Shown one piece after another: positions 28,084-44,069 of a DNA stretch of 61,670 nt; position 1 is the stretch's first letter, and each line of letters begins with the position of its first letter. Both the position numbers and the translations under genes were made by a program. This DNA is from a virus. The notes beneath the pieces were generated by a model that did no database searches, had not been told where the DNA came from, and worked only from the letters and a program-made list of their open reading frames with translations. The DNA lies in the IMG/VR virus record IMGVR_UViG_3300042402_004691, positions 1 through 61,670 of that record; one strand, given 5' to 3'.

Positions 28084-31000
28084 ATGGCTAGAATAAAAAA
28101 ATTTGGGGATACCCGATCGGAAAAATTATCAACATTTCAAACTTTTTTAGTAGATGATAATCCAAATTCTACTTATTTTAGAATTAGTGAATTCAAAGAC
28201 ACTTTTTCAGGTGGTAAAAATGGATTTCTTATAGAAGGATCTGAATTTCTAAAAGAAACTACTGAAATTAAAATTGAAATACTTGATGTTGAAGGTAACC
28301 CAATTTACTTTGAACCAGGAGATGGTATACCTGAATATTACGAAGGTGTATCCAAATTACTATCAGTTCACATATATGAGGATGTTCCGATAGGTATAGG
28401 TAAAATAACCATATTAGGTGAATTAAAAAATTATTTAGATAGCGGAGATGTTATTAGACCAATTCCTGATGATTGGAAAGGCTTGTATAATGTAAAGTGG
28501 GAAAGGGATTTCAAAATAAACCGATTACTATCTAACGAAGATAAAGTTAGGTTTTATAGAAGACCTGTAATTGAGATTGATGAAATTACTAGACCTATAT
28601 TTACTGCAACTCCTACAGAAATCCAACAGAGTGGAATTGTTAATGGATTACCAATAGTTCCAAATGCTGGAACTAGATTGACAGATTTTTCATTACCAAC
28701 ATCTTACTTACTTACAATTGCAGATAATTCAAATTGGACGGCATCGGTAGTTGGAAATCCAGTAGTGCTACCTAATTTGGGAGTTCAACTACAAAGTAGT
28801 GATGTTATTACAAATAAACAACTTACAGTAACAACTCCATATACTGTAAATGGAATTGTACAACCATTTTTTAATCAGCCATATACCGCGAGTTTTAATT
28901 ATTTAGAATTAGACTCTACATTGGGAACTGCGTTGAGTGGATCATTTGCTAAAATAAACATTACAGAATTAACTACTTTTGTTGGAGATGTAGCTAGGGT
29001 GAAGGTATTTAGAAAATCTCAATCCGAAGTATCCGATTTCCAATTTGTACAAGAAATACCATTGGAGTCTAATGAAATACTAATTGATTTAGAGTCATCA
29101 CAACGAAATCAGGAGTTATATGGATTATTCACTCCGTTTGTATTACAAAATTATTGGGTTACATCTTCTAACAATTTGACAATTGATTTTAATCAAGATT
29201 TTTTATATAACTCCGTAGAACTAAATAGTGTTGGTACTAATAGATTTTCTAGTGTAAAAGATGTTCCTATAAATTTGGGAATAGAATATACATTTGGATT
29301 TAATATTAGATTAGAAGAAAACATATCATCGCAAAATTCTTTGATAGTTTATTTAGAGGGTATTCGAAATGGTTTAACCACACGACAACCAATCGTAACA
29401 CTTCAGTCATCAAACGCTATTTTACAGAAATCAAATATAACTGCAAATTTTATAGCAGAAGGATTGGATAACGCTAAACTAATTTTTGAAGTAAGTGGTA
29501 ATGGTTGGTATATATCCGATGTTAGTTTAAGAGCATCTCAAGAAAGTTCATTTTCACCTGATGAGATTACATTTATACAACCTGTCCCTAGAACATTAGA
29601 AACTGAAACATTTGATTTCCGTTTTGAGTTTTATGACATAAACAACAACTACATACCTGTACTGGTAGAAAAAACAAAAACCTTTGATGGTGGTAACCTA
29701 AACCGAATAGCTAAACGATTGGAATTAGTACCATCTTCTTTATATTTTCAATTTGACTCTGGATCTGGAACGGGTAACCCGTTACCACCAAGTGCAATCT
29801 TTATAGATGTTGTTAAGGAGTTTTTGACAGGTTCAACTAATTTTACATCCCGTTCATTTGATTTGGATAATAATGAGTTATCTGCCTCCGTTTATATTGG
29901 AGAACAATATCCAGGTCTTTTAATAGATGAAGGAGATGACAGGTATAGATTGACAGTCCAAAACTTTACGGGTTCAAAAATTGATACCATAGTTCAATAT
30001 ATAGAATATGTTGCAGAATGTGAGGGTGTAAGTGATACTATTGTTATAACTAGAGTTAGTGATGGTAAGGGTGGAGTTAATTTTGAGATAAGACCTTATA
30101 GAGGAACTGTAATTAGAAACAGTGATGAATTCGCTACATTGGAAGTTCAAGCGGTTAGAATTGATGGTATAAATGAAACCAATTTAGTTAGTGGATTACC
30201 ATTAAATCAGTCTGATACTAAACTATTCGTACAATCGGGTTCTAATTATCTAACAATTACTGAAGCAAGTAGTTCTGGATTTTTATTAGGAGTTACCGCC
30301 GGAACAACAGGTTCTACTGAACTTGATTACAATCCAGTATTTAATAGAGATAGTATAGTTGGGCAATTAGTGCTTTACTTAATACCATCATCTTCCGTAA
30401 ATAGAGAAGAAAATATTGTATCAACACTAACCTTAACTGATATTTTGGATGGTTTGGATGCCGGATTTATTGAGTATGATATAGATGTGTTTACTATTAA
30501 CCCTCGTACTGAAACGATATTCACACCTGTATCCGCTAGTGTAACTGCATCTTATTATAGAAGAGGAACTAGTGAAAATCCAATATCAGCATCCGTTATT
30601 GTATATCCATCCATGTCCATAAACGAAGATTTTATACCTGAATTTTGGATGAACTATTTTACTGGAAGTATAAACTCTGATATTATTGTAAGTGGGTTTG
30701 ATGAATTAGGAAATTTAATGACTCCTGTATTACCTTCGAACTTTGTTGGAGATCCATTATTTCAAAACAAACAATTAACTTTAAGTTTTAATTACATAGA
30801 ACCATATACTTCGGAGAGTGTATTGGTGGAGCATACATTTAACATTATTCCAGAAGGAGTACCTGGACAAGATGCAATTATTTATGAAATAATACCTTCT
30901 AATGTGACATTAAATGCGAATGAAAGTGGAATTGTAACTAATTTCAATCCATCCGCAACCGAAATAAAAGTTAAGCAAGGATTTGATTATCTTGCATTTA

Positions 31001-34000
31001 CTGGAAGTGGAAAACCTGGAACTTTCTTCATATCATCCGCATCTGTTATCGGTAATAATGTAACTCCAGGTGAGGTTTATTTTGATAATACATATACACA
31101 ATCACTTTTGGTATCTGCTTCAACTGCGTTTGATGTACTTGCATTAAGTGGTAGTGTAGAATACCTAATAGAAGTTCATCCATTTTTCACATCTTCATTC
31201 TTTACACAAAGTTTAGTTCAACCATATATTAAAACATTTGATGGTGAAACTGCAAGGAGTGTTACACTACAGGCATCATCTAATATAGTTAACTTTGATG
31301 GGAACGGTATAGTGATATCACCAGAAGGAGATATTGTACTAACTGCTACCGCCTTTGGAGCAACTGGTTCTGTATTTTATCAATTCTATAGAAATGATAT
31401 ACCATATTCAACAGTTCAATCATCTAATATATTTGAGGTAGGATCAGGTGATGCTGCTCTAATAGGTGAAACCGCATTGTGGAGTGTAGAAATTAGAGAT
31501 GGTGGTGCGACATCGGTGGTAAGAGCGGAAGGTAGTGTAACTATTGCGGGTGTGCAAGGTGGTGCAGATGCATACAATGTTCAATTAACTAATGAAAACT
31601 CATCCGTAGTATCTAGTGTATTTGATGTCCTAACATTAAGTGGTAGTGGTACTGATATATTAGCTACAAAAGGAGATGTGGCGTTGCAAGCAGTAACTTC
31701 GTTTTCTTCACCAACATTTGATCAATTAGGAAGTGAGATACCAAATGGAGAATACAGAGTTAAAATTGCATCCAAACCTTCGTATATAACATTAGCAGGT
31801 GGATTGGTAAGTGGTAGTACAGTTCCAGTAGTAAGTGGTATAGCTAGAATTGGTGATATAACTGCATGGAGTACTCCTAGAGAAAATACAACTGCTCAAA
31901 TTGTGTATGAGGTTAATTTAGAAAACGGAAGAAGAACAACATTTAAGACACAATCCCTATCAGTTCAGTTCGAAGGAGCAATCGGTCCGGGTCTAATTAT
32001 GAGAGGAGTTTGGACTGGCTCTTTACAATACATATTTGATACTCCTAGTAAAAGAAGAGATAGTGTAATCTATCCAGGAGGTATAAATGAAACTTATTAT
32101 TGGGCATCATTGACATCTTCACTAAACCAACCACCTCCAACTATTGTGGGTGAGCCGAGTGAAGATCCGAGAGATGCGAATGAGTATTGGGAATACTTGG
32201 GTAAGGAAGAGTTTTTTGTTGCTGCTAAATTGGCAATTTTTGAGGAGTCCTTTGTTAAGAACACTATAAATGTTGGAAACAATCCTGGTAGTGCATTTGC
32301 TAATATCGTAATCGCTGGAGGTAGAATTGATCCTTATTTTGCAATAGGACAAAACGGAACTGTTGGATTGGATGGAGACCAGACTGGGAGTGGTATAATT
32401 GGTTATGACCGACCTGGTATTTTTATGGGTACATTTGATAGTGGTGGAACTAAAACTGCACGTTTCTCATTAAAAAATGGAGCCGGTGATAGATACATGC
32501 GTTGGAATGGTTCTGACTTAGAATTAAGTGGAGTATTGAATGCGGGTGGTATGAAATTAGGACCTGATGTAAGTGGGTCTAATGATGGATTATTCATTGG
32601 AGATACTAACTACTGGTATGACAATGGTAATTTTAAGGTAGGTGCTAGTAATAACTATATGGAATGGGATGGTTCTGCTTTAATAATAAAAGGTAGTATC
32701 AGGCAAACCGCAGCAGGGCAGCCAGAAGGAAGGGCATTGGGTGCGTGGAGTGCTAGCTTTGCATATTTAGTAAATGATATAGTATCACACAATGGTAGAA
32801 CTTGGTATTGTAAAGTAGCACATAATTCTGGAACTACACCTGATGATGAACCTTTAGTTGGTTCTAATTACACAACTTATTGGGAAATTGCAGCTGATGC
32901 GGGTACTTCGGGAACTGCCGGTGCGTCTGGAACAAGTGGTACAAATGGAGCGGCTGGGGCAGCTGGAGATCCTGGTCCAGGTGTAGTTTTTAGAGGTCCA
33001 TATTCTGCAAGTGAAAACTATTTTTATACTACAGCTAGAAGAGATATTGTAAGAGGAAGTGATGGTGCTTTTTATTTAGCAAATAATTTAGCAAAAAATG
33101 GATTAAATACTTGGCTTGACCCAACAACAACACCTGCCGATTGGACTGCATTTGGAGCACAATTTAGTTCTGTTGCAACTGATGTTTTATTAGCACAAGA
33201 TGCTACTATAACTAGGGGATTGGTTATGGGTGCAGGTGACGGTGGTTCATCGTTTATTAGAAGTTCTGGAGCAACTTCATTAACTACTGGCACTGGATTT
33301 TTTATGAGTAGTAGCGGAAATTTTAGATTTGGTGAAAGTATAAGTGATAGTGGTAATTTTGTTTATTGGGATGGCTCTCAATTGGAAGTAGGTGGTACAC
33401 TTAAAACACGAGGTGGGAATAGTGAATTAGGTAATTGGTTAGTAGATGATCTGGGAAGATTTAGAGACTCTGGTTCTAAACTTATATTAGATGCGGAACA
33501 AAAATCAATAAAAATAGCAAACTCCGCGGGAGAACTGAAACTGAGCGTTAGAACAGGTGCATTACAATCTTTGACGGGTGGTGCGGTTACCAACACACCA
33601 AATACAATAAGTAATTCCGCATTAACATATTCAACTAATCAAAGTTTTACACAAACATTTACAACAACTGCATTTAGTACAACATTAAATGCAGGACAAT
33701 ATAGCTATAATATAAATTCAACTTCAATGGCGGGTAGTATAACCCACTCATCTCCTACATCTGGATTTTTTACTATCAGCTATTTTTATCAAGTATTGAA
33801 TGCTTCAAACGAAAGTGTATCAACTATATCACTAGCATCCGGTACGAGTTTCGGAACAGGTGGTAGTATATTTGGTCAAAGTGGATTGAATGTAATAACT
33901 ATACCAGTAACTGGAACATATACAATAAGACCAGTATATGTTGTAACTGTAAGTTTTAGTTCTCCTGGTAATGTAACTTTTCCTATCCAAAGCTTTTCAC

Positions 34001-34734
34001 CTGGAACTGTTACATTTTCTCCTTCAACTAATTTTGCAGAATTAACTGACAGCGGACTTCAGGTTGTGAGTAGCAATAATAGATTTGTAAAATTAGAAAG
34101 AGGCGATGGTACTAGTGGATACGAAATTACAGCAAAAGGATTGTGTTATTTTGAGCAGTCTAATGTTAATAGTAGTACTACGGTTATTGCTATTGATGGG
34201 GATATAGTTCCTAATAATGTCATAACATCTTCATTGGGAAAGATTGGAAACCGATGGGAACAACTTCATATAAATGAAATATTTTCCCCATCATTACCAA
34301 CAACTGCAACTGCAGCTAATCTTAATATAGATACCACAGCTGGTACTACATTAGGAAGATTTAGACGTTCTACTTCATCCGAGCGGTATAAATTAAATAT
34401 TGAAGATTTGGACAAACCATTAGTTGATAATTCAATAATGAATTTGAGACCTGTTTGGTATAGAAGTAATCCAGATACTACTGTTGATAGACCTGATTGG
34501 AGTTATATTGGATTAATCGCCGAAGAAGTTGCTGAAATTGAACCTAGATTAGTTCAATATAATATAACAACTGGTTCAAACGGTCAGGAAGTTTTGATAC
34601 CAGAGAGTGTTCAATATGATAGAATTGGAGTATTGTTATTATCGCATATACAATCTCAAACAAAAATAATAGATGAACTTTCTAAAAAAGTAAATGATTT
34701 AGAATTGTCGATAAGTAGTTCAAATAATTTATAA
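28084..34734 (+). CDS. giant tail fibre with collagen-like segment and peptidase S74 chaperone
   Basis: 2216 residues, the largest gene here. Residues 1-1500 are strand-rich, apparently many immunoglobulin-like or fibre repeats (ASVTASYYRRG, VTLQASSNIV). About 1550-1600 is a small carbohydrate-binding-like module (LVNDIVSHNGRTWYCKVAHN), about 1605-1635 a collagen-like stretch (GTSGTAGASGTSGTNGAAG). The C-terminus, about 2090-2216, is an intramolecular chaperone (peptidase S74): SSERYKLNI with Ser2098 and Lys2103 as likely dyad, then YIGLIAEEV and a coiled coil. Such domains trimerise the fibre and cut themselves off, here probably just before Ser2098. It is the presumed receptor-binding fibre and lies next to the sugar cassette. 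Confidence 0.85.
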   Translation: MARIKKFGDTRSEKLSTFQTFLVDDNPNSTYFRISEFKDTFSGGKNGFLIEGSEFLKETTEIKIEILDVEGNPIYFEPGDGIPEYYEGVSKLLSVHIYEDVPIGIGKITILGELKNYLDSGDVIRPIPDDWKGLYNVKWERDFKINRLLSNEDKVRFYRRPVIEIDEITRPIFTATPTEIQQSGIVNGLPIVPNAGTRLTDFSLPTSYLLTIADNSNWTASVVGNPVVLPNLGVQLQSSDVITNKQLTVTTPYTVNGIVQPFFNQPYTASFNYLELDSTLGTALSGSFAKINITELTTFVGDVARVKVFRKSQSEVSDFQFVQEIPLESNEILIDLESSQRNQELYGLFTPFVLQNYWVTSSNNLTIDFNQDFLYNSVELNSVGTNRFSSVKDVPINLGIEYTFGFNIRLEENISSQNSLIVYLEGIRNGLTTRQPIVTLQSSNAILQKSNITANFIAEGLDNAKLIFEVSGNGWYISDVSLRASQESSFSPDEITFIQPVPRTLETETFDFRFEFYDINNNYIPVLVEKTKTFDGGNLNRIAKRLELVPSSLYFQFDSGSGTGNPLPPSAIFIDVVKEFLTGSTNFTSRSFDLDNNELSASVYIGEQYPGLLIDEGDDRYRLTVQNFTGSKIDTIVQYIEYVAECEGVSDTIVITRVSDGKGGVNFEIRPYRGTVIRNSDEFATLEVQAVRIDGINETNLVSGLPLNQSDTKLFVQSGSNYLTITEASSSGFLLGVTAGTTGSTELDYNPVFNRDSIVGQLVLYLIPSSSVNREENIVSTLTLTDILDGLDAGFIEYDIDVFTINPRTETIFTPVSASVTASYYRRGTSENPISASVIVYPSMSINEDFIPEFWMNYFTGSINSDIIVSGFDELGNLMTPVLPSNFVGDPLFQNKQLTLSFNYIEPYTSESVLVEHTFNIIPEGVPGQDAIIYEIIPSNVTLNANESGIVTNFNPSATEIKVKQGFDYLAFTGSGKPGTFFISSASVIGNNVTPGEVYFDNTYTQSLLVSASTAFDVLALSGSVEYLIEVHPFFTSSFFTQSLVQPYIKTFDGETARSVTLQASSNIVNFDGNGIVISPEGDIVLTATAFGATGSVFYQFYRNDIPYSTVQSSNIFEVGSGDAALIGETALWSVEIRDGGATSVVRAEGSVTIAGVQGGADAYNVQLTNENSSVVSSVFDVLTLSGSGTDILATKGDVALQAVTSFSSPTFDQLGSEIPNGEYRVKIASKPSYITLAGGLVSGSTVPVVSGIARIGDITAWSTPRENTTAQIVYEVNLENGRRTTFKTQSLSVQFEGAIGPGLIMRGVWTGSLQYIFDTPSKRRDSVIYPGGINETYYWASLTSSLNQPPPTIVGEPSEDPRDANEYWEYLGKEEFFVAAKLAIFEESFVKNTINVGNNPGSAFANIVIAGGRIDPYFAIGQNGTVGLDGDQTGSGIIGYDRPGIFMGTFDSGGTKTARFSLKNGAGDRYMRWNGSDLELSGVLNAGGMKLGPDVSGSNDGLFIGDTNYWYDNGNFKVGASNNYMEWDGSALIIKGSIRQTAAGQPEGRALGAWSASFAYLVNDIVSHNGRTWYCKVAHNSGTTPDDEPLVGSNYTTYWEIAADAGTSGTAGASGTSGTNGAAGAAGDPGPGVVFRGPYSASENYFYTTARRDIVRGSDGAFYLANNLAKNGLNTWLDPTTTPADWTAFGAQFSSVATDVLLAQDATITRGLVMGAGDGGSSFIRSSGATSLTTGTGFFMSSSGNFRFGESISDSGNFVYWDGSQLEVGGTLKTRGGNSELGNWLVDDLGRFRDSGSKLILDAEQKSIKIANSAGELKLSVRTGALQSLTGGAVTNTPNTISNSALTYSTNQSFTQTFTTTAFSTTLNAGQYSYNINSTSMAGSITHSSPTSGFFTISYFYQVLNASNESVSTISLASGTSFGTGGSIFGQSGLNVITIPVTGTYTIRPVYVVTVSFSSPGNVTFPIQSFSPGTVTFSPSTNFAELTDSGLQVVSSNNRFVKLERGDGTSGYEITAKGLCYFEQSNVNSSTTVIAIDGDIVPNNVITSSLGKIGNRWEQLHINEIFSPSLPTTATAANLNIDTTAGTTLGRFRRSTSSERYKLNIEDLDKPLVDNSIMNLRPVWYRSNPDTTVDRPDWSYIGLIAEEVAEIEPRLVQYNITTGSNGQEVLIPESVQYDRIGVLLLSHIQSQTKIIDELSKKVNDLELSISSSNNL

Positions 34735-34782: not shown

Positions 34783-35064
34783 ATGACACAAATTAAAGAA
34801 GTATTACAAACTGAAGTAATTGAAAAATTAAAATTCAACCAAGCTCAAGCAAACGAAGCGGTGGTAAATTTAGGACAAATTGAATTGAGAATTATTGATT
34901 TGAAAGATGAGTTAGATGCAGTTCAACAATTTAAAGAAGATGTTCTAAAATCTTATAGAACCGCAGTTGATACAATCAATACCGAACTTAAAGTATTGGA
35001 AGAAAAATATCCAAACGGTGAAGTTGATTTGAATGAAGGGGTTGTCATTTTCGAAAAAGAATAA
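34783..35064 (+). CDS. coiled-coil protein, paralogue A
   Basis: 93 residues, almost wholly helical with heptad spacing (NLGQIELRIIDLKDELDAVQ). It ends LEEKYPNGEVDLNEGVVIFE, which matches the end of the 39817 gene (LQEKYPGGRINLQEGTIQYQ). Both have exact late promoters and flank the sugar cassette. The shared K-Y-P-x-G-x-[VI]-[DN]-L-x-E-G ending is the clearest signature. Role unknown; a small virion or assembly protein is plausible given late expression. Confidence 0.65.
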   Translation: MTQIKEVLQTEVIEKLKFNQAQANEAVVNLGQIELRIIDLKDELDAVQQFKEDVLKSYRTAVDTINTELKVLEEKYPNGEVDLNEGVVIFEKE

Positions 35065-35119: not shown

Positions 35120-36763
35120 ATGAAAAAAAGGTTACTATACATCTGCCCACACTTATCCACTGGTGGGCAACCACAATATGTTTACAAACAAATAGAAAGT
35201 TTCAAAGATGAATTTGAAATCCAAGTTGTAGAAATACATAATAGTGGAGGAACTGCATTTGTGGTTCAAAAAAATAGAATAAAAAACACAGTACCACTTC
35301 ATACATTGGGTGAAGATAAAAATGATGTGTTAAAGGTAATAGAAAACTTTTCACCTCATATTATTCACTTTCACGAAATTCCACAATTCGATTTATCGCA
35401 CGAAACATTAGATGTTATATTCAGTGAGAATAGAAATTATCACATAGTAGTAACAACACATGGTTCATTGACTAATCCAGATGAGATAATTTATCAACCT
35501 GATAGATATGTTTTAGTTAGTGAGTGGAGTAAAAGAAAGTTTGAAGGATTGGGTATCGAAACTGATGTGTGGCAATATCCAATTGAAAACTATGCATTTG
35601 ATAAAGCCGAAGCTAGAAAAAAGCTGGGGTTTGAAGATGATTGGAAACACGTCTTAAATGTAGGTTTATTCGCTCCTGGTAAAAATCAAAAAGAAATATT
35701 TGATATAGCTAGAGAATTAGAACAATACAAAATAAAGTTTCACTTCGTAGGAAATCAGGCAATGAACTTTGAACATTATTGGAAACCACTATTGGATACA
35801 AAGCCTGATAATTGTATAGTGTGGGGGGAGCGAAACGATGTTGATACTTTCTACGCGGCATCCGATATCTTTTATTTTTCATCTATATTGGAATTAAACC
35901 CATTATCCATAAAAGAAGCATTATCATATAAACTACCATCACTATTCCGTAGATTACACACTTATTTAGATACCTACGATAACAACCGATTAGTACACTA
36001 TATTACTAACGATTTGGGTGATACTAAAAATAGATTGTTGAAATTGTTAGGATTGGAAACTACAAAGAGTGTAAAACCTAAAATACAGATAAAGCATCTA
36101 TTGACGAGACCTGATGATGAAAGGGAAATGTTGAGTATGAAATCCATAAGCACTTTACAGAGATATGGGATAAATTATCAACCAATCGTTAATCAAGTAT
36201 ATGAGGGATTGGCTCCTGCTGAAAATTGTAGAAGACCTGAGCATATTAGTAAAGATAATAAACCAGGAGAATTATATCCTGGCGCTGGGTTAGGTTGGAT
36301 GACAGGTAGACATTACGGGTGCTATCTTGCACATAGAGGAGCATTGGAAACAATCGACAGTGAATATGATTACACGCTAATCTTTGAGGCAGATGCGTAT
36401 GTACATTCAACAATGGATGAGTTTGTGGATATTATATACAAAGGGTGTGAAATTATGGAAAGAGATGATGTTTATTTCCTATCCTTTGCGGATAATCCAT
36501 CTAGATACAAAGAGAGGATTAATGAATACTTTTCTAAAACAGGTTCTAATCAAGACCTTGCCCACGCTTATATTGTGAGAAATAAAGATAAAGAATGGTG
36601 GATGGAACGATTAAAAGATTGTGGATGGGATGTGGGAGACCTTTGGTACAATCATGTATTTGCAAATCATCCTAAACCTCGATACACAACAAATAAAGTT
36701 TATTCTAATCAGGGTGCTGGGTATTCTTTGTTAGATGAGACTATAAAAAAATGGGAGTTATGA
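35120..36763 (+). CDS. two-domain glycosyltransferase (GT4-like plus GT25-like)
   Basis: 547 residues from ATG 35120. An upstream in-frame ATG at 35102 falls inside the -7 box and cannot be used from that promoter. Residues 1-310 are a GT-B, GT4-like fold: LLYICPHLSTGGQPQYVYKQ, VTTHGSL, VLNVGLFAPGKNQKEI, then a C-terminal lobe with EALSYKLPSLF. Residues about 330-547 look like a GT25-type transferase: GRHYGCYLAHRGALETI, LIFEADAYV with Glu423/Asp425 in place of the EDD site. So one chain may add two sugars in series. It opens an operon in which every following gene overlaps its predecessor by ATGA. Confidence 0.75.
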   Translation: MKKRLLYICPHLSTGGQPQYVYKQIESFKDEFEIQVVEIHNSGGTAFVVQKNRIKNTVPLHTLGEDKNDVLKVIENFSPHIIHFHEIPQFDLSHETLDVIFSENRNYHIVVTTHGSLTNPDEIIYQPDRYVLVSEWSKRKFEGLGIETDVWQYPIENYAFDKAEARKKLGFEDDWKHVLNVGLFAPGKNQKEIFDIARELEQYKIKFHFVGNQAMNFEHYWKPLLDTKPDNCIVWGERNDVDTFYAASDIFYFSSILELNPLSIKEALSYKLPSLFRRLHTYLDTYDNNRLVHYITNDLGDTKNRLLKLLGLETTKSVKPKIQIKHLLTRPDDEREMLSMKSISTLQRYGINYQPIVNQVYEGLAPAENCRRPEHISKDNKPGELYPGAGLGWMTGRHYGCYLAHRGALETIDSEYDYTLIFEADAYVHSTMDEFVDIIYKGCEIMERDDVYFLSFADNPSRYKERINEYFSKTGSNQDLAHAYIVRNKDKEWWMERLKDCGWDVGDLWYNHVFANHPKPRYTTNKVYSNQGAGYSLLDETIKKWEL

Positions 36764-37899
36764 TATACGATAATTTAGTTAAAAACGAAAACAATAAAGT
36801 AGTACCTAAAAATACTATAAACATAAACTTTGTAAAGGGTGCGTTTGTTGAAGTTAAAGGTTCTAAGGAAGCAAATTATAGGATACGATTTGTAAATAAC
36901 ATAACTGGTGAGATGCCTTACGAAACTACTATTAGAAATAATATGTGGACTAGATGTACCATTGAATATTTTATAGAGTGGAGAATTGAGGTATATGAAA
37001 ACGAAGAGAGAATACATACCCATATTTACAATGCAGCTGATAAAAGAGTTTATATAGCATTTGACTCTAAAGCGTTAGGTGATACGATGGCATGGATACC
37101 TTATGTTGATGAGTTTAGAAAACAACATAAGTGTGAGGTTATATGCTCTACCTTTATGAACGAATTGTTTGTGGATACCTATCCTGAAATAGAGTTCGTA
37201 AAACCAGGTGTGGGAGTAAATAATCTCTATGCTATGTATTCATTGGGATTGTTCTATACTGAAGATGGTAGTATCAACAAACAAAAGAACCCAACCGATC
37301 CAAAATATCAACCAATGCAAAAAATGGCAACCGATATATTGGGAGTACAATACGAAGAGATAAGACCTAAGTTAAAGTACAATAAGTTAGATAGAAAAAA
37401 ACAAATCGCTATTGGTATACATGGAACTGCTCAATCTAAGTATTGGAATAACCCTACTGGATGGCAAGATGTTGTAGACTGGTTAAATCGTAAAGGGTAT
37501 AATGTAAAACTTATATCCAGAGAAGGAGATGGGTATATGGGTAATCGTCATCCAAAAGGAATTACTAGATTACAATCGGGTTCCATAGAGGGTGTTATAG
37601 ATGAATTAAAGAGTTCTGAGATGTTTATAGGTATCGGTAGTGGGTTGAGTTGGTTGAGTTGGGGATTGGGTGTTAAAACCGTTCTTATTAGTGGATTTTC
37701 GTATGACTGGGCAGAGATGCGGGACTGTATTCGTATATCTCCACCAAAAGGAAAATGTGAAGGTTGCTTTAACCGATTGAGATTAGATGCGGGTGATTGG
37801 AATTGGTGTCCCGATCACAAAGGAACTCAAAGACAATTTGAGTGTACTAAATCCATAACCTCTGAGATGATAATAAAAGAATTGGAAAAGGTACTATGA
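36760..37899 (+). CDS. BAHT-type protein O-heptosyltransferase
   Basis: 379 residues from ATG 36760, which overlaps the previous stop (ATGA). The N-terminal 90 residues (NFVKGAFVEVKGSKEANYRI, NNMWTRCTIEYFIEWRIEVY) and the following YIAFDSKALGDTMAWIPYVD match the autotransporter heptosyltransferase family (Aah, TibC). The GT9-like half has IGIHGTAQSKYWNNPTGWQD and GIGSGLSWLSWGLG. The iron-finger cysteines of that family appear as Cys333-x2-Cys336, Cys350 and Cys362. Known members use ADP-heptose to glycosylate serines of beta-solenoid adhesins. With HldE-like genes downstream, heptose transfer to a protein, perhaps the neighbouring fibre, is the best inference. Confidence 0.82.
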   Translation: MIYDNLVKNENNKVVPKNTININFVKGAFVEVKGSKEANYRIRFVNNITGEMPYETTIRNNMWTRCTIEYFIEWRIEVYENEERIHTHIYNAADKRVYIAFDSKALGDTMAWIPYVDEFRKQHKCEVICSTFMNELFVDTYPEIEFVKPGVGVNNLYAMYSLGLFYTEDGSINKQKNPTDPKYQPMQKMATDILGVQYEEIRPKLKYNKLDRKKQIAIGIHGTAQSKYWNNPTGWQDVVDWLNRKGYNVKLISREGDGYMGNRHPKGITRLQSGSIEGVIDELKSSEMFIGIGSGLSWLSWGLGVKTVLISGFSYDWAEMRDCIRISPPKGKCEGCFNRLRLDAGDWNWCPDHKGTQRQFECTKSITSEMIIKELEKVL

Positions 37900-38279
37900 G
37901 GATTTGGATAAATGGTTGTTTTGATGTTCTTCACTATGGTCATTTTCGTATGATAGAATATGCTGCATCTTTAGGTGAGATGCTGGTAATCGGAATTGAC
38001 TCGGATGAAAGGGTTAAAAAAATGAAAGGAGAGGATAGACCATTCCATACAGAAACACAGCGTAAGTTTAATTTAATGCAACTCAAAGGGGTTAGTAATG
38101 TTGTGATATTTGATAGTGATGAGATGTTAAGAAGTCAAATTGAATTATACAAACCAAACATATTCGTAATCGGAAGCGATTATACAAACAAACCTATTAT
38201 TGGAGGAAACCACGCAGATGAAATTCGTTTTTTCGATAGGATAAAAGATTTTAGTACAACAAAAATATTAAAAAAATGA
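37896..38279 (+). CDS. HldE C-domain-like nucleotidyltransferase (RfaE2-like)
   Basis: 127 residues, the size of a single cytidylyltransferase-fold domain. GCFDVLHYGHFRMIEYA contains the HxGH signature in the form H-Y-G-H, then IGIDSDERVKKMKGEDRP, FVIGSDYTNKPI and a C-terminal DFSTTKILKK that closely parallels the end of HldE/RfaE. HldE's C-domain joins AMP to heptose-1-phosphate. TagD-type glycerol-phosphate enzymes are the main alternative, but FSTTxIxKK favours HldE. Start and stop both overlap neighbours by 4 nt. Confidence 0.78.
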   Translation: MRIWINGCFDVLHYGHFRMIEYAASLGEMLVIGIDSDERVKKMKGEDRPFHTETQRKFNLMQLKGVSNVVIFDSDEMLRSQIELYKPNIFVIGSDYTNKPIIGGNHADEIRFFDRIKDFSTTKILKK

Positions 38280-38872
38280 TTGATGAAATTGTAGTAATTG
38301 ATAATGTTATACCGTCTTCTATGCAAAATCAAATAGAAGATTTATTTACATCGGGTAGATTAGCTTGGATTTTCTTTAAGGATATTGCGGTATCTCCGGA
38401 AGATATAAAAAGATTGAATATAAAAAAATTAACACCTGGAATTGCTTGTTATATAAAGCAAGATAATCCTAATTTTCTAAATGGGCAGTTGTATAATCTT
38501 GTAAAGATGATACCTGAAGCAGCGTGTAAACAAATAGATAAGCAATGTCTTGAAATCCATAATGCGAGAAGTTTTATGCATTTTCCGTTAAACGATGAGA
38601 TGCGGAAAGAATACGATAATGTGCATATCGATGTTCATTATCCACATTTAGTAGTTCTGTATTATGTAAACGATACGGATGGTGATACATTTATTTTTGA
38701 TAAAACTACTGTTGATTGTAAATACATAACAAAAGATACGAAACTCAATGTACTCAAAAAGGTGAGTCCTAAAAAGGGTAGAGTAGTTATGTTTAATGGT
38801 AATAGGTATCACTCTAGTTCTGGACCAACTAAGGATGTTAGATGTATTATAAACTTTAATGTTAAAATATGA
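38276..38872 (+). CDS. 2-oxoglutarate/Fe(II)-dependent oxygenase
   Basis: 198 residues. Iron ligands His117-x-Asp119 (VHIDVHYPHLVVLYY) and His179 (GNRYHSSSGP), with Arg189 ten residues on (RCIINF) to bind 2-oxoglutarate: the standard facial triad plus arginine in a double-stranded beta-helix. VVMFNGNRYH is typical. Such enzymes hydroxylate proteins, sugars or bases. It sits between two heptose-nucleotide genes in a fully overlapping operon, so it may hydroxylate the acceptor residue or the sugar. The substrate cannot be told from sequence. Confidence 0.82.
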   Translation: MIDEIVVIDNVIPSSMQNQIEDLFTSGRLAWIFFKDIAVSPEDIKRLNIKKLTPGIACYIKQDNPNFLNGQLYNLVKMIPEAACKQIDKQCLEIHNARSFMHFPLNDEMRKEYDNVHIDVHYPHLVVLYYVNDTDGDTFIFDKTTVDCKYITKDTKLNVLKKVSPKKGRVVMFNGNRYHSSSGPTKDVRCIINFNVKI

Positions 38873-39603
38873 GTAAAGTATTAATAATAGGGGAAAATTG
38901 TATAGATGTATTTGTTTATGGACATTCAAAAAGAAAATCACCAGAGGGAGCAGGACCAGTCTTTACTCCAATTGAAGAAGTATATGCAGATGGAATGGCA
39001 TATAATACGGCTAACAACATTGTTGCAATGGGGTTGGATGTAGATATCATAACTAACGCTGAAGAAATGATAAAGCGTAGATATTTGGATATGGATACCA
39101 ATCATTTATTTTTAAGAGTGGATGAAAACGATAAAGTATCTCAATATGATATCAACGAACTGCCAGATTTATCAAACTATTCTGCGGTTTTAATATCGGA
39201 CTACCACAAAGGTTTCTTAACCGAAGATGATATTAGTTATATAGCAGAAAGACATCCGTTGGTGATAGTTGATACTAAAAAAATATTGGGTGATTGGTGT
39301 AAGGAAATTAACTTTATAAAAATAAACCGAACCGAATACTTAAATAATGCAGAAGTTATTAACAACAACCAATGGTTGGTGGATAAACTACTAATTACAT
39401 TTGATAAGGATGGTACAATCCATAAAGGCGTTAGGTATCCTGCCGAAAATGTAGAAGTGGTGGATATATGTGGTGCAGGTGATACCTTTGTAGCAGGATT
39501 TACCAAAGAATACATCGAAACTGAAGATGTTGATAAATCCATAGTTTTTGCAAATAAAGCCGCATCCGTTGTTATACAAAAAAGAGGAGTAGGGATTTAT
39601 TAA
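38869..39603 (+). CDS. HldE N-domain-like PfkB sugar kinase (RfaE1-like)
   Basis: 244 residues, short for a PfkB kinase. The opening VLIIGENCIDVFVYGHSKRK then SPEGAGPVFTPIEEVYADGM parallels the heptose-7-phosphate kinase half of HldE (SPE.P.PV...GGA). LISDYHKGFL and the catalytic CGAGDTFVAGF with Asp205 are present. In E. coli, kinase and adenylyltransferase form one protein; here they are separate and in reversed order with the oxygenase between. Together they could turn heptose-7-phosphate into an ADP-heptose precursor, with the intermediate phosphatase and epimerase from the host. Some lid residues may be missing. Confidence 0.78.
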   Translation: MSKVLIIGENCIDVFVYGHSKRKSPEGAGPVFTPIEEVYADGMAYNTANNIVAMGLDVDIITNAEEMIKRRYLDMDTNHLFLRVDENDKVSQYDINELPDLSNYSAVLISDYHKGFLTEDDISYIAERHPLVIVDTKKILGDWCKEINFIKINRTEYLNNAEVINNNQWLVDKLLITFDKDGTIHKGVRYPAENVEVVDICGAGDTFVAGFTKEYIETEDVDKSIVFANKAASVVIQKRGVGIY

Positions 39604-39816: not shown

Positions 39817-40143
39817 ATGTCACTAGAAAATGTACCTGTAAAAAATTCAATTGAAATCGAAACTGTTAAGTTGGACGAAAATATTTTGAATGAACTTAAA
39901 GAATTCAACCAATCAATTGCTAACACTTTAACTGGATTGGGTGAGCTTCATGTAAGAAAGCAAGAACTGCACGAGGAACTTACCAGATTGGAAACTCTAA
40001 GAGGTGAATTGGAGCAAGAGTTCAAAGATAACAATAATTCTTTGAAGAAGAAAATTGATAAGCTTCAAGAAAAGTATCCAGGTGGTAGAATTAACCTACA
40101 AGAAGGAACTATCCAATATCAGCCTGAAGCAAATCAGCGATAA
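39817..40143 (+). CDS. coiled-coil protein, paralogue B
   Basis: 108 residues. Helical (LGELHVRKQELHEELTRLET, LRGELEQEFKDNNN) and ending LQEKYPGGRINLQEGTIQYQ, the same ending as the 34783 gene on the other side of the sugar cassette. A 13-bp terminator follows. Longer N-terminus than paralogue A. Function unknown. Confidence 0.65.
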   Translation: MSLENVPVKNSIEIETVKLDENILNELKEFNQSIANTLTGLGELHVRKQELHEELTRLETLRGELEQEFKDNNNSLKKKIDKLQEKYPGGRINLQEGTIQYQPEANQR

Positions 40144-40238: not shown

Positions 40239-43200
40239 ATGAATAATTTAGGAAAATACTTAGTTGAAGAATTATTAAAAGAAATTGAAAATATTACAAA
40301 TTATGTTGTAGTATATTCAGGTAGATTTCAACCATTTCATAAAGGGCATTACGCAACTTACGAACATTTAGTTAAAAAGTTCGGAAAAGATAATGTTTAT
40401 ATTGGAACCTCCGATAAAACAGATAATCAAAAATCTCCATTTAATTTTAAGGAAAAGAAAACCATTATGACTAAAATGTTTGGAATATCTCCAAATAAAA
40501 TAGTTTTGGTTAAAAATCCTTATGCTCCAATGGAAATCCTAAAAAACTATGATGAAACTACAACTGCATTTATTACTGTAGTTGGTGAAAAGGATGAGCA
40601 GAGATTAGGTGGTAAGTATTTTACTCCATACAAAGGAGATTTGGATAGTGGATATAAAGATAAGGGATATGTGTACGCTTCACCTGCACAACCAAACGCA
40701 ATTAGTGGAACTGATGTAAGAAATTGGTTAGGAAAGGGTGAGATGGAAGATAGAAAACAACTTTTTAATAAAGCGTATCCAAAGTTTGATAAAAATATAT
40801 TTGATTTAATAACTAAAAAGTTAGATACCTTAAATGAGTCTAGTTCAATTGACTCGGGTGAACCTGACGTGGGATATTATGCGGATGGTACTAAACGAAT
40901 ACTGAATGGAGCTAAGCCAGAAATATGGTTTAAGCAAGGTGGATACATTCAGTTAGATAAACCTAAATCCGATTACATGAGAGGAAAGGGTAAGAATAAA
41001 GATACTGAGTCTCAATTCCGTAAAGTTACTTATGCGTTAAAGGGAGTTACCGCTCCAAAAACTGCTAAAGATAGTAAATCCAAAGTTGCACCATATCAAG
41101 TTGATAAATGGAAAAATGTAACATCTAAAAATGTAAAGAAAAAAGAAGATAGGTATTGGGATTTGGATAAAGTTAATGAAAGGATTTTTATACCAAAAGA
41201 GTTTATCGAAGAATGGGTTACTGAAAACTTAAATAGGATTTTAAGTGAAATATCAACATCAACTGCGGGACCTGCTACTAATAATGGGAAGATAGTAGAT
41301 GATGGACCTAATTTATTTTTTCCAAACTATGATACATTTAATGCTGTATCAAAAGTAAGAGCGGAGCAGATTGGATACACAATTTTCCAACAGATAATGG
41401 ATAAAAAGTATGAGGATTATTACGAACATCCAATATATCCAAAAGGACCACCATCAGTAGTTTCACCATTTCCTGCCGGAGTTATCGATGATGCATCCAA
41501 TGAAAAAGATTTAGCGGGTATTGAAGCATACGATGAATGGTATACTCACATCACTCGTTCTATGGCATTAGTGGGATATGAATTAGTTAAAGATTTTGAT
41601 AAATCATTTAAGGATTTGGCAATTAAAGATGCTGATAATATGAAGAAAGATGCTGGTGTAGAAAAAATAAAAAATACTGTTGTGGAAAGTGGTATGGGTT
41701 TGGCAATGGGTTACCCATCAAAAGAGCAACTCCTTCAAAAGAAAAAGGAAAGAGATGAGTTGAGAAAGAAAATGGATAAGGAAAGTGAATACTACCAAGC
41801 AGTAGAAGAAGATATTACTATACCATTGAATGTGGGTGATACGGTTTTAGGTGGCAAGTTTAAGAATAAAAAAATTGTGGTTAAGGATATAAGTAAAAAC
41901 GAAAAGGGAGAAGTGACAGTAAATGGAAAATCCCTATTAAAATACAGATTGATTGATGAAGCATACGATGAAGTAATTGCTGAATTGATGAAAGACCCAC
42001 AATTTGAAGGATTGTTGAGTGAAATACCAATGGCTGATTTACAACAACTTGATAAATTTGCAGATAAACAATTAGACCCTATTGATGTTGTATTAACCGG
42101 AAGACACTTTTTAGAAAGATTAGTTGATCCACGAAATAGTAAACCAATATCAGCTGCAGAACTTACTGGATTTTTTAAGAGATTGGCAAGAAAAAAGAAT
42201 GAGTTTGTGGAATTTCTTAAAAAATATGGTGAAATAGTTGCAAAGGATAACAGAACTAAAATCAACATTCCATTTATGCAACAGGCTAATAAGGCGATTG
42301 CAAAAACAATAATGAGAAAGGATGATTTTAAGACTCCATCACCTGAATTAAAGTTTGAAGTCATAACTGAAGATACTATAAAATACTTATCCAAATCATT
42401 GGGTATGAGTAGAAAAGATATGCCACAAATTAGTTCCAAACACATAGGAGATTTTGTGAAGTATCTAAACGATAAAGGAGTATCAGTATCACCATCAGTA
42501 ATAGATGTATCTAAAATTGGAATGACCCAAAAGGATATAAATGTGGATAAGGTAAAGGATTTATTGGGAGTGGAAAAATCCAACTTAGCAAAACCTGTTA
42601 TCATATCAAACGATGGATATATTTTGGATGGTCACCACAGAGTTGCAGCATTGTATAATGTGGATAAAAACTTTAAGTTAAAAACTATAAAAGTAGATCT
42701 AGGAATTAAGGATTTATTGAAAGCTGCGGGTGAGTTTCCAAAGGTATCATATAAGGGGATAGAAGAATATGCTGGATTTAAGACAAGTCATATTCAACCT
42801 GCTCCACCTATGAAAGGATTGGATGATCCTGATGATAATTGGAAAGATGTAAAAGAAGGATTGATTACAGAAGGTGGAGCGTATGGTCATATGAACCATC
42901 CGTTTGATACCGATATTAACTTAACTTTTGGGCAACTAAAGGATATTGTTAAAAAGGCATTGAATGGTGAATTGGAATTGACGAGAGAAAAAACCGATGG
43001 ACAGGCATTAGCAGTTAGTTGGGTAAATGGTAGATTGGTAGCAGCTAGGAACAAATCACACTTAAAGGATAAAGGTAAAGGTGCGATGGATATAAACGCA
43101 GTTGCTGCTAAGTTTGGTGGTAGAGGTGGATTAACCGATGCATACAACTTTGCAATGAAAGACCTTTCTGTTGCGGTTGATAAATTATCACAAAAGCAAA

Positions 43201-44069
43201 AAGATAAGATATTCGGTGGTGGTTCTAAGTTTATGAACTTGGAAGTTATATACCCATCATCAGTAAATGTTATACCATACGGACAGGCATTATTAGTATT
43301 TCACGGTACATTTGAGTACGATGAGGCTGGTAATATCATAGGTGAAGACCAGAATGCGGGTAAGATATTAGCGGGTATGATTAAACAGATAAATCAAAAT
43401 GTTCAATCCAAATATACTATACAAGGACCTCCTGTTGTAAAACTACCAAAGAACAAAGAGTTGAGTAAATCCCAACCTAAGTACTTTGCTATGATTTCTA
43501 AATTACAAAGTGAGTTTGGATTGAACGATAATCAAGGAGTAGCTGAATATCACCAAAAATGGTGGGAACAATTTATAGATAAAAATGCAAAAGGATTAGA
43601 TGCTCAACAAAAAATTGGATTAGTTAAGAGATGGGCATTTGGGGATAAAGGATTTAGATTAAAAGATATCGAAGATGAAACTATCCGTAATTGGGCAGAA
43701 GGAATTGATAAAACTGATCACTCAAAAATAAGTAAAGATAACTTAATGAAGTTTGAGAGAATATTTTTAGGAGTGGGAGCAGAAGTTCTATCATTTATGA
43801 GTTCAGTTCTAACTGTAAATCCGGATAAAGCAAAAAGAGCAATGGTTGATAGGTTAGAAGCCGCTATAAAGGATGTTGAAGCTAAAGGTGATGAAAAGCA
43901 GATACAAAAATTGAAATTGGAATTGCAAAGATTGCAAGATTTGGGAGGAGTTGATAAGATTGTTCCTAATGAAGGTATTGTATTTGTTTATGGTGGAAAT
44001 ACGATGAAACTAACTGGAGCATTCGCTCCTCTTAATCAACTATTGGGGATATTTTTTGATGGTAAGTAA
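40239..44069 (+). CDS. giant multi-enzyme protein: nucleotidyltransferase, ParB-like and ligase-type domains
   Basis: 1276 residues. N-terminus: cytidylyltransferase-like fold with YSGRFQPFHKGHYATYEHL (HxGH at 34-37) and ISGTDVRNWL. Residues about 580-800 end in a ParB/Srx-like module with DGHHR (797-801) after VIISNDGYIL. Residues about 885-1276 look like a covalent nucleotidyltransferase of the RNA/DNA ligase superfamily: KTDG with Lys918, NLEVIYPSS, EGIVFVYGG and MKLTG in the expected order. The start MNNLGKYLVEELLKEIE resembles a capsid-targeting helix, and LITEGG just before the ligase part resembles a prohead-protease site. It may be a packaged polyprotein. Repair or modification of DNA/RNA ends is a guess. 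Confidence 0.7.
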   Translation: MNNLGKYLVEELLKEIENITNYVVVYSGRFQPFHKGHYATYEHLVKKFGKDNVYIGTSDKTDNQKSPFNFKEKKTIMTKMFGISPNKIVLVKNPYAPMEILKNYDETTTAFITVVGEKDEQRLGGKYFTPYKGDLDSGYKDKGYVYASPAQPNAISGTDVRNWLGKGEMEDRKQLFNKAYPKFDKNIFDLITKKLDTLNESSSIDSGEPDVGYYADGTKRILNGAKPEIWFKQGGYIQLDKPKSDYMRGKGKNKDTESQFRKVTYALKGVTAPKTAKDSKSKVAPYQVDKWKNVTSKNVKKKEDRYWDLDKVNERIFIPKEFIEEWVTENLNRILSEISTSTAGPATNNGKIVDDGPNLFFPNYDTFNAVSKVRAEQIGYTIFQQIMDKKYEDYYEHPIYPKGPPSVVSPFPAGVIDDASNEKDLAGIEAYDEWYTHITRSMALVGYELVKDFDKSFKDLAIKDADNMKKDAGVEKIKNTVVESGMGLAMGYPSKEQLLQKKKERDELRKKMDKESEYYQAVEEDITIPLNVGDTVLGGKFKNKKIVVKDISKNEKGEVTVNGKSLLKYRLIDEAYDEVIAELMKDPQFEGLLSEIPMADLQQLDKFADKQLDPIDVVLTGRHFLERLVDPRNSKPISAAELTGFFKRLARKKNEFVEFLKKYGEIVAKDNRTKINIPFMQQANKAIAKTIMRKDDFKTPSPELKFEVITEDTIKYLSKSLGMSRKDMPQISSKHIGDFVKYLNDKGVSVSPSVIDVSKIGMTQKDINVDKVKDLLGVEKSNLAKPVIISNDGYILDGHHRVAALYNVDKNFKLKTIKVDLGIKDLLKAAGEFPKVSYKGIEEYAGFKTSHIQPAPPMKGLDDPDDNWKDVKEGLITEGGAYGHMNHPFDTDINLTFGQLKDIVKKALNGELELTREKTDGQALAVSWVNGRLVAARNKSHLKDKGKGAMDINAVAAKFGGRGGLTDAYNFAMKDLSVAVDKLSQKQKDKIFGGGSKFMNLEVIYPSSVNVIPYGQALLVFHGTFEYDEAGNIIGEDQNAGKILAGMIKQINQNVQSKYTIQGPPVVKLPKNKELSKSQPKYFAMISKLQSEFGLNDNQGVAEYHQKWWEQFIDKNAKGLDAQQKIGLVKRWAFGDKGFRLKDIEDETIRNWAEGIDKTDHSKISKDNLMKFERIFLGVGAEVLSFMSSVLTVNPDKAKRAMVDRLEAAIKDVEAKGDEKQIQKLKLELQRLQDLGGVDKIVPNEGIVFVYGGNTMKLTGAFAPLNQLLGIFFDGK

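Follow-up and report, generated by a model that had tools for sequence, protein, structure and literature searches.

A putative virion-glycosylation operon with a BAHT-family heptosyltransferase in a freshwater T4-like phage

Gene content of the locus

We analysed the complete IMG/VR record IMGVR_UViG_3300042402_004691, a stretch of 61,670 bases from a freshwater phage, classed as a virus (hereafter the window), with a focus on a five-gene operon that encodes a BAHT-family putative O-heptosyltransferase. Terminase, portal, major head, baseplate and primase genes indicate a T4-like phage. The isolates closest in terminase were Flavobacterium phage immuto and Microcystis phage Mel-JY01 (55% each) and, since these related isolates measure 160 and 190 kb, the record is very probably a piece of a larger genome. 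Megablast against phages gave no matches.

The five open reading frames (ORFs) are all open on the plus strand, and an ATGA overlap is found at all four junctions (36760, 37896, 38276 and 38869), as an earlier reading made from the letters alone (the sequence-only reading) had described. They encode, in order, a double glycosyltransferase with GT4 and GT25-like domains (35120-36763), the BAHT-family protein (36760-37899), an HldE C-domain-like adenylyltransferase (37896-38279), a 2OG-Fe(II) oxygenase that is an insertion peculiar to this phage (38276-38872) and a short HldE N-domain-like kinase (38869-39603). Upstream on the same strand lies a giant tail fibre of 2216 aa (28084-34734), the candidate substrate, with a CBM5/12 domain (aa 1554-1600), a C-terminal S74 chaperone domain and a collagen-like tract, GTSGTAGASGTSGTNGAAGAAGDPGPG (aa 1607-1633, positions 32902-32982), the candidate acceptor site. 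The fibre had been placed directly upstream of the operon. It is upstream, but a small, probably coiled-coil protein of 93 aa (34783-35064, plus strand) intervenes and is kept between fibre and glycosyltransferase. A second coiled-coil-like protein resembling it follows the operon (39817-40143, plus strand), and the glycosylation module is thus flanked by two similar small proteins, possibly through duplication. Further downstream, a large protein with an N-terminal NMN-adenylyltransferase-like domain (40239-44069, plus strand) serves as a syntenic marker outside the assigned pathway.

Identity of the BAHT-family enzyme

The 36760 protein matched the TIGR04414 profile at 278.6 bits (cut-off 200, E 7.1e-83), and TibC was its sole solved relative by PDB sequence match (1e-50). 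The match to PF21129 (TibC_1st) was weak (E 0.009). GT9 models also scored weakly (Glyco_transf_9, E 0.006; heptsyl_trn_I, E 0.004), and ordinary GT9 or WaaC identity was rejected on the difference between E values of 0.004-0.006 and 7e-83. An AlphaFold2 model (pLDDT 89) was compared with TibC using Foldseek, yielding a TM score of 0.84-0.85 over 371-374 columns, along the whole length and including the N-terminal beta-barrel, against about 0.45 for WaaC. Sequence and predicted fold both identify the 36760 protein as a genuine BAHT, and the sequence-only reading was right on this point.

In TibC the base is Asp110, with Thr226, Lys230, Trp305 and Arg286 as donor-binding residues (PMC4358343). 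The 36760 protein keeps the equivalents D111, T226, K230 and W301 and the four cysteines of the iron finger. In the alignment, the catalytic Asp, the Lys and the Trp were invariant in all BAHT clades, including 71 phage rows, and the four cysteines were retained in every full-length row.

Conservation across the phage lineage

Close relatives of the enzyme were encoded on 379 viral contigs, from which 80 loci were kept for a synteny comparison. The order fibre, small ORF, glycosyltransferase, BAHT, (HldE genes), small ORF, nucleotidyltransferase recurred across these loci, and its conservation is far above chance. Among contigs selected by terminase alone, the BAHT gene was present in 19 of the 19 with the region in view, and the glycosyltransferase wherever the contig extended to it. 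A more distant terminase-selected contig of 266 kb also carried the BAHT gene. Both HldE genes were found in 31 of 66 distinct loci, the adenylyltransferase only in 9, neither in 26 and the kinase alone in none. Because the BAHT gene is constant and the HldE genes are optional, the transferase is the core of the system and donor synthesis an accessory. In annotated phage records the enzyme is rare (4 of 50,697).

The HldE-like pair

The best family of the 37896 protein was rfaE_dom_II (104 bits, below the TIGR02199 curated cut-off of 181.5) and that of the 38869 protein was rfaE_dom_I (98 bits, below the TIGR02198 curated cut-off of 345). The TagD model TIGR01518 reached 56 bits on the former, against 104 for rfaE_dom_II. 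TagD identity and a non-heptose kinase identity were thus both rejected by the profile scores, in line with the HldE-like assignment first made. The adenylyltransferase keeps the HxGH and STTxI motifs (NGCFDVLHYGH and STTKI). The kinase keeps GAGD and R-x-SPE-xx-x-PV (GAGDTF and RKSPEGAGPV); across phage copies, GAGDTF was found in 32 of 32 and the SPEG motif in 30 of 32. It is 244 aa long, and a truncated-kinase reading was rejected, as every phage orthologue falls within 244-253 aa. The HldE-C-like proteins of the viral loci (L005-L084) come in two motif types, NGCFD-x-LHYGH and NGTFD-x-LHIGH, and nearly all loci with an adenylyltransferase and no kinase have low-scoring HldE-C-like copies.

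The split genes correspond to cyanophage genes GC304 and GC305 (the kinase is an orthologue of GC305, phrog_8133), which are already in public annotations and have short GmhA-like, cupin and epimerase genes as neighbours. The sequence-only reading knew of no description of the five-gene combination in a phage. Split HldE genes by themselves are not new to phages. It had also proposed that the phage makes or boosts ADP-heptose. Neither gmhA nor hldD was found in the window or in its IMG/VR relatives, all of which are fragments (gmhB was not searched for); production by the phage on its own is not supported, and boosting is what we propose. A gmhA match above cut-off was found only in LR756504. 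This 636-kb huge phage (LR756504.1, loci L004 and L085) has a strong GmhA (251 bits) about 26 kb from its BAHT gene.

Partner genes

In the 35120 protein the GT4 domain is clear (PF00534, 1.3e-11) and the GT25-like domain weak (PF01755, 0.016), and its description as a double glycosyltransferase stands. The GT25-like domain was found in 10 of 13 aligned members, the best match being 3.7e-5. A Methyltransf_24 domain lies between the two glycosyltransferase domains in 9 of the 13 (e.g. L014, 5839-8010); the 35120 protein lacks it.

The 38276 protein matched PF13640 (1.8e-4) and phrog_274 (6e-32), and its earlier identification as a 2OG oxygenase is borne out. The PHROG label "endonuclease V" is probably wrong, given the 2OG-like Pfam result; the probable 2OG family is labelled "DNA endonuclease V", probably by misannotation, in phrog_274 and in the cyanophage records P-SSM2 and S-SSM7 (L092 and L094). 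The gene was present in 0 of the 66 classified lineage loci other than the phage under study. The oxygenase was therefore dropped as part of the system, and with it the suggestion that it hydroxylates heptose.

Two BAHT clades and a link to collagen-like proteins

TIGR04414 was searched in Methylococcales and in the order to which the Polaromonas genome belongs. Bacterial BAHTs fell into two score classes, an autotransporter-type one at 484-663 bits and a second-clade one at 304-327 bits. In a maximum-likelihood tree the AIDA-linked enzymes formed one clade (100/100), with the phage and collagen-linked enzymes opposite, and phages of the present lineage grouped with Methylobacter and Polaromonas enzymes (support 99/97). 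These bacterial relatives adjoin small secreted or lipoprotein-like ORFs rich in GTSGTSG triplets. A (Gly-Thr/Ser-Ser)n tract was found within 1.3 kb of the BAHT gene in 9 of 10 second-clade loci against 0 of 9 autotransporter-type loci (p=1.2e-4), the latter inspected over several kb on each side. No Gly-Ser/Thr tract was found across 133 kb of GT9 loci. An AIDA stalk domain was present in 5 of 6 autotransporter-type neighbours tested, and a Pfam Collagen match in 4 of 4 second-clade neighbours tested. In three bacterial genomes the tract pattern was confined to the site beside the BAHT gene. Among 201 Methylococcales genomes, the strict tract pattern occurred in 5 of 7 with a second-clade enzyme and in 3 of 194 others (p=4e-7). 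A class search around one of the bacterial genomes (G024) detected second-clade enzymes only in that genome and in G023.

The converse search was made in viruses. A four-triplet Gly-Thr-Ser pattern was the sole criterion for choosing test contigs, which measured at least 40 kb; controls of at least 30 kb were picked with an arbitrary 14- or 15-mer (the 15-mer gave only 13 contigs). TIGR04414 proteins were found in 15 of 29 tract-selected contigs (14 above cut-off) and in 0 of 28 random contigs (p=5e-6). Tracts were also found in two of three BAHT-bearing phage records inspected (Mel-JY01 and LR756501). The association of BAHT and tract recurs in several bacterial groups and in unlike phages.

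Relatives of the phage encode giant virion-type proteins, which reach about 4,500 aa and contain as many as 284 G[ST][ST] triplets. In three relatives (G005, G007 and G013) these proteins lie about 20-45 kb from the BAHT gene, on the side that in the window falls close to the end of the record or past it. In the 735-kb huge phage LR756501.1 (L003), which has 1,642 matches to a three-triplet Gly-Ser/Thr pattern, the BAHT is fused behind a glycosyltransferase-like domain. The "methyltransferase FkbM" of Mel-JY01 (L002, 4750-8430) is really a protein of 1,226 aa whose N-terminal part is glycosyltransferase-like and whose C-terminal domain is a BAHT.

Proposed function and alternatives

With moderate confidence, we suggest that this operon serves to glycosylate the virion. 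The 36760 enzyme would move a sugar, in all likelihood D,D-heptose with ADP-heptose as donor, onto Ser/Thr residues of Gly-Ser/Thr-Ser collagen-like fibre tracts. The GT4/GT25-like neighbour probably lengthens the glycan, and the methyltransferase domain fused into the glycosyltransferases of most relatives may add methyl groups to it. In phages that have the split HldE, its kinase and adenylyltransferase would raise donor supply from host heptose-7-phosphate. The purpose might be, for example, to stabilise or shield a collagen-like stalk. We infer acceptor and donor from gene linkage and family membership; the order of steps and the purpose are likewise inferred. The sequence-only reading had named the fibre as heptose target; a virion fibre is still preferred over host glycan, but the evidence favours collagen-like Gly-Ser/Thr tracts rather than beta-rich domains in general. 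A wider reading, whose chances we consider close to even but slightly short of it, is that the second BAHT clade, not described before, is dedicated to collagen-like (Gly-Thr/Ser-Ser)n proteins and common to bacteria and diverse phages. Phages would then glycosylate hundreds of Ser/Thr sites on giant collagen-like fibres, the sugar could replace hydroxyproline in triple-helix stabilisation, and some phages would supply split HldE.

Several observations weigh against this interpretation. The phage's own fibre has a single short tract; no strict tract was found anywhere in the window, and the presence of long tracts there was rejected. Of 51 relatives with sufficient upstream sequence, only 26 (about half) have a short tract of the same kind in the adjacent fibre. 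No BAHT was seen in 14 of the 29 tract-bearing contigs, some of which are possibly fragments, and LR756504 lacks a tract although it encodes both BAHT and GmhA. One bacterial second-clade locus (L166) also lacks a tract, and related phages are partly non-independent data points. Finally, the position of Arg286 is Val in the 36760 protein and in 65 of 71 phage rows, while it is Arg in 10 of 10 autotransporter-type enzymes. In TibC this residue touches adenine, and replacing it with Ala abolishes activity or diminishes it greatly (PMC4358343). ADP-heptose is the probable donor, but its nucleotide part is less certain because Arg286 is lost.

It is conceivable, though we consider it unlikely, that the enzyme uses another nucleotide sugar, with the HldE-like pair either producing some other activated sugar or having no part in its donor supply. 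Replacement of the adenine contact by Val, Ile or Leu in most enzymes of the clade would fit this, as would the scores of the HldE-like proteins below equivalog cut-offs, the proximity of the adenylyltransferase to cytidylyltransferases as well, and the absence of the pair from 26 of 66 lineage loci. However, the fold and the equivalents of Lys230, Thr226 and Trp305 are conserved, the rfaE domains are clearly the best profiles, most kinase copies have the RKSPEG-GPV motif, and host ADP-heptose could serve phages without the pair.

The other two alternatives concern the acceptor. AIDA-I-like heptosylation of the adjacent fibre at its beta-rich domains, rather than at collagen-like tracts, appears improbable. 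The fibre gene is adjacent in loci with sufficient upstream DNA, and beta-helix autotransporters are the substrates of classic BAHTs (PMC4358343), but the phage enzyme lies outside the AIDA-linked clade, and across its own clade the association is with collagen-like tracts. In a Pfam scan no AIDA match or AIDA-type repeat family was detected in the adjacent fibre, AIDA being found beside autotransporter-type BAHTs only. Improbable too, in our view, is that the operon changes a host surface glycan, be it lipopolysaccharide (LPS) or capsule, perhaps to shut out competing phages; the HldE pair would then be an auxiliary module for LPS, a role supposed for it in cyanophages. The pair does occur in cyanophage sugar clusters without BAHT, and the GT4 partner is similar to polysaccharide enzymes. 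Nevertheless, BAHTs are protein O-heptosyltransferases, and the operon sits among structural genes, has core status and is tied to tract proteins. Glycosylation of collagen-like fibre tracts is our preferred reading.

If correct, this would offer a first candidate for an enzyme that modifies the collagen-like Gly-Ser/Thr tracts often seen in fibres of environmental phages. It would also bring viruses, and a new class of substrate, into a bacterial family that modifies adhesins, and would suggest that some phage "heptosyltransferase" genes reported as LPS auxiliary (e.g. PMC10747093, PMC8066274) merit re-examination as virion-modifying. The proposal is directly testable because the cultured Microcystis phage Mel-JY01 has both BAHT and tract.

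Comparison with known systems

The BAHT family, the HldE family and, through public annotations, split HldE genes in cyanophages are already known. No paper linking BAHT to phages or collagen-like proteins was found in the literature collection searched, and many journals lie outside that collection. In BclA-type bacterial collagen-like proteins and in mimivirus collagen, sugar is likewise placed on Gly-X-Y tracts, on Ser/Thr or hydroxylysine, but the enzymes are unrelated and include no BAHT. Gram-negative HldE (RfaE) is the best family for both phage proteins, which differ from it in being encoded by two separate genes, in the kinase shortened to 244 aa and in scoring below curated cut-offs. 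T4-like cyanophages (P-SSM2, S-SM2, P-TIM68 and others) have the orthologous short kinase and adenylyltransferase, in several cases near tail fibre genes. They lack BAHT but have the short GmhA-like, cupin and epimerase genes, the reverse of the phage under study. With TibC/TibA and Aah/AIDA-I (TIGR04414) the phage enzyme shares the fold, the catalytic Asp and Lys, the Trp, the four-Cys iron finger and a likely repetitive substrate gene nearby. Unlike them, it belongs to a separate clade in which Arg286 is mostly lost, the substrate gene encodes a collagen-like protein or virion fibre rather than an AIDA autotransporter, and the enzyme is accompanied by a GT4/GT25-like partner and optional HldE genes.

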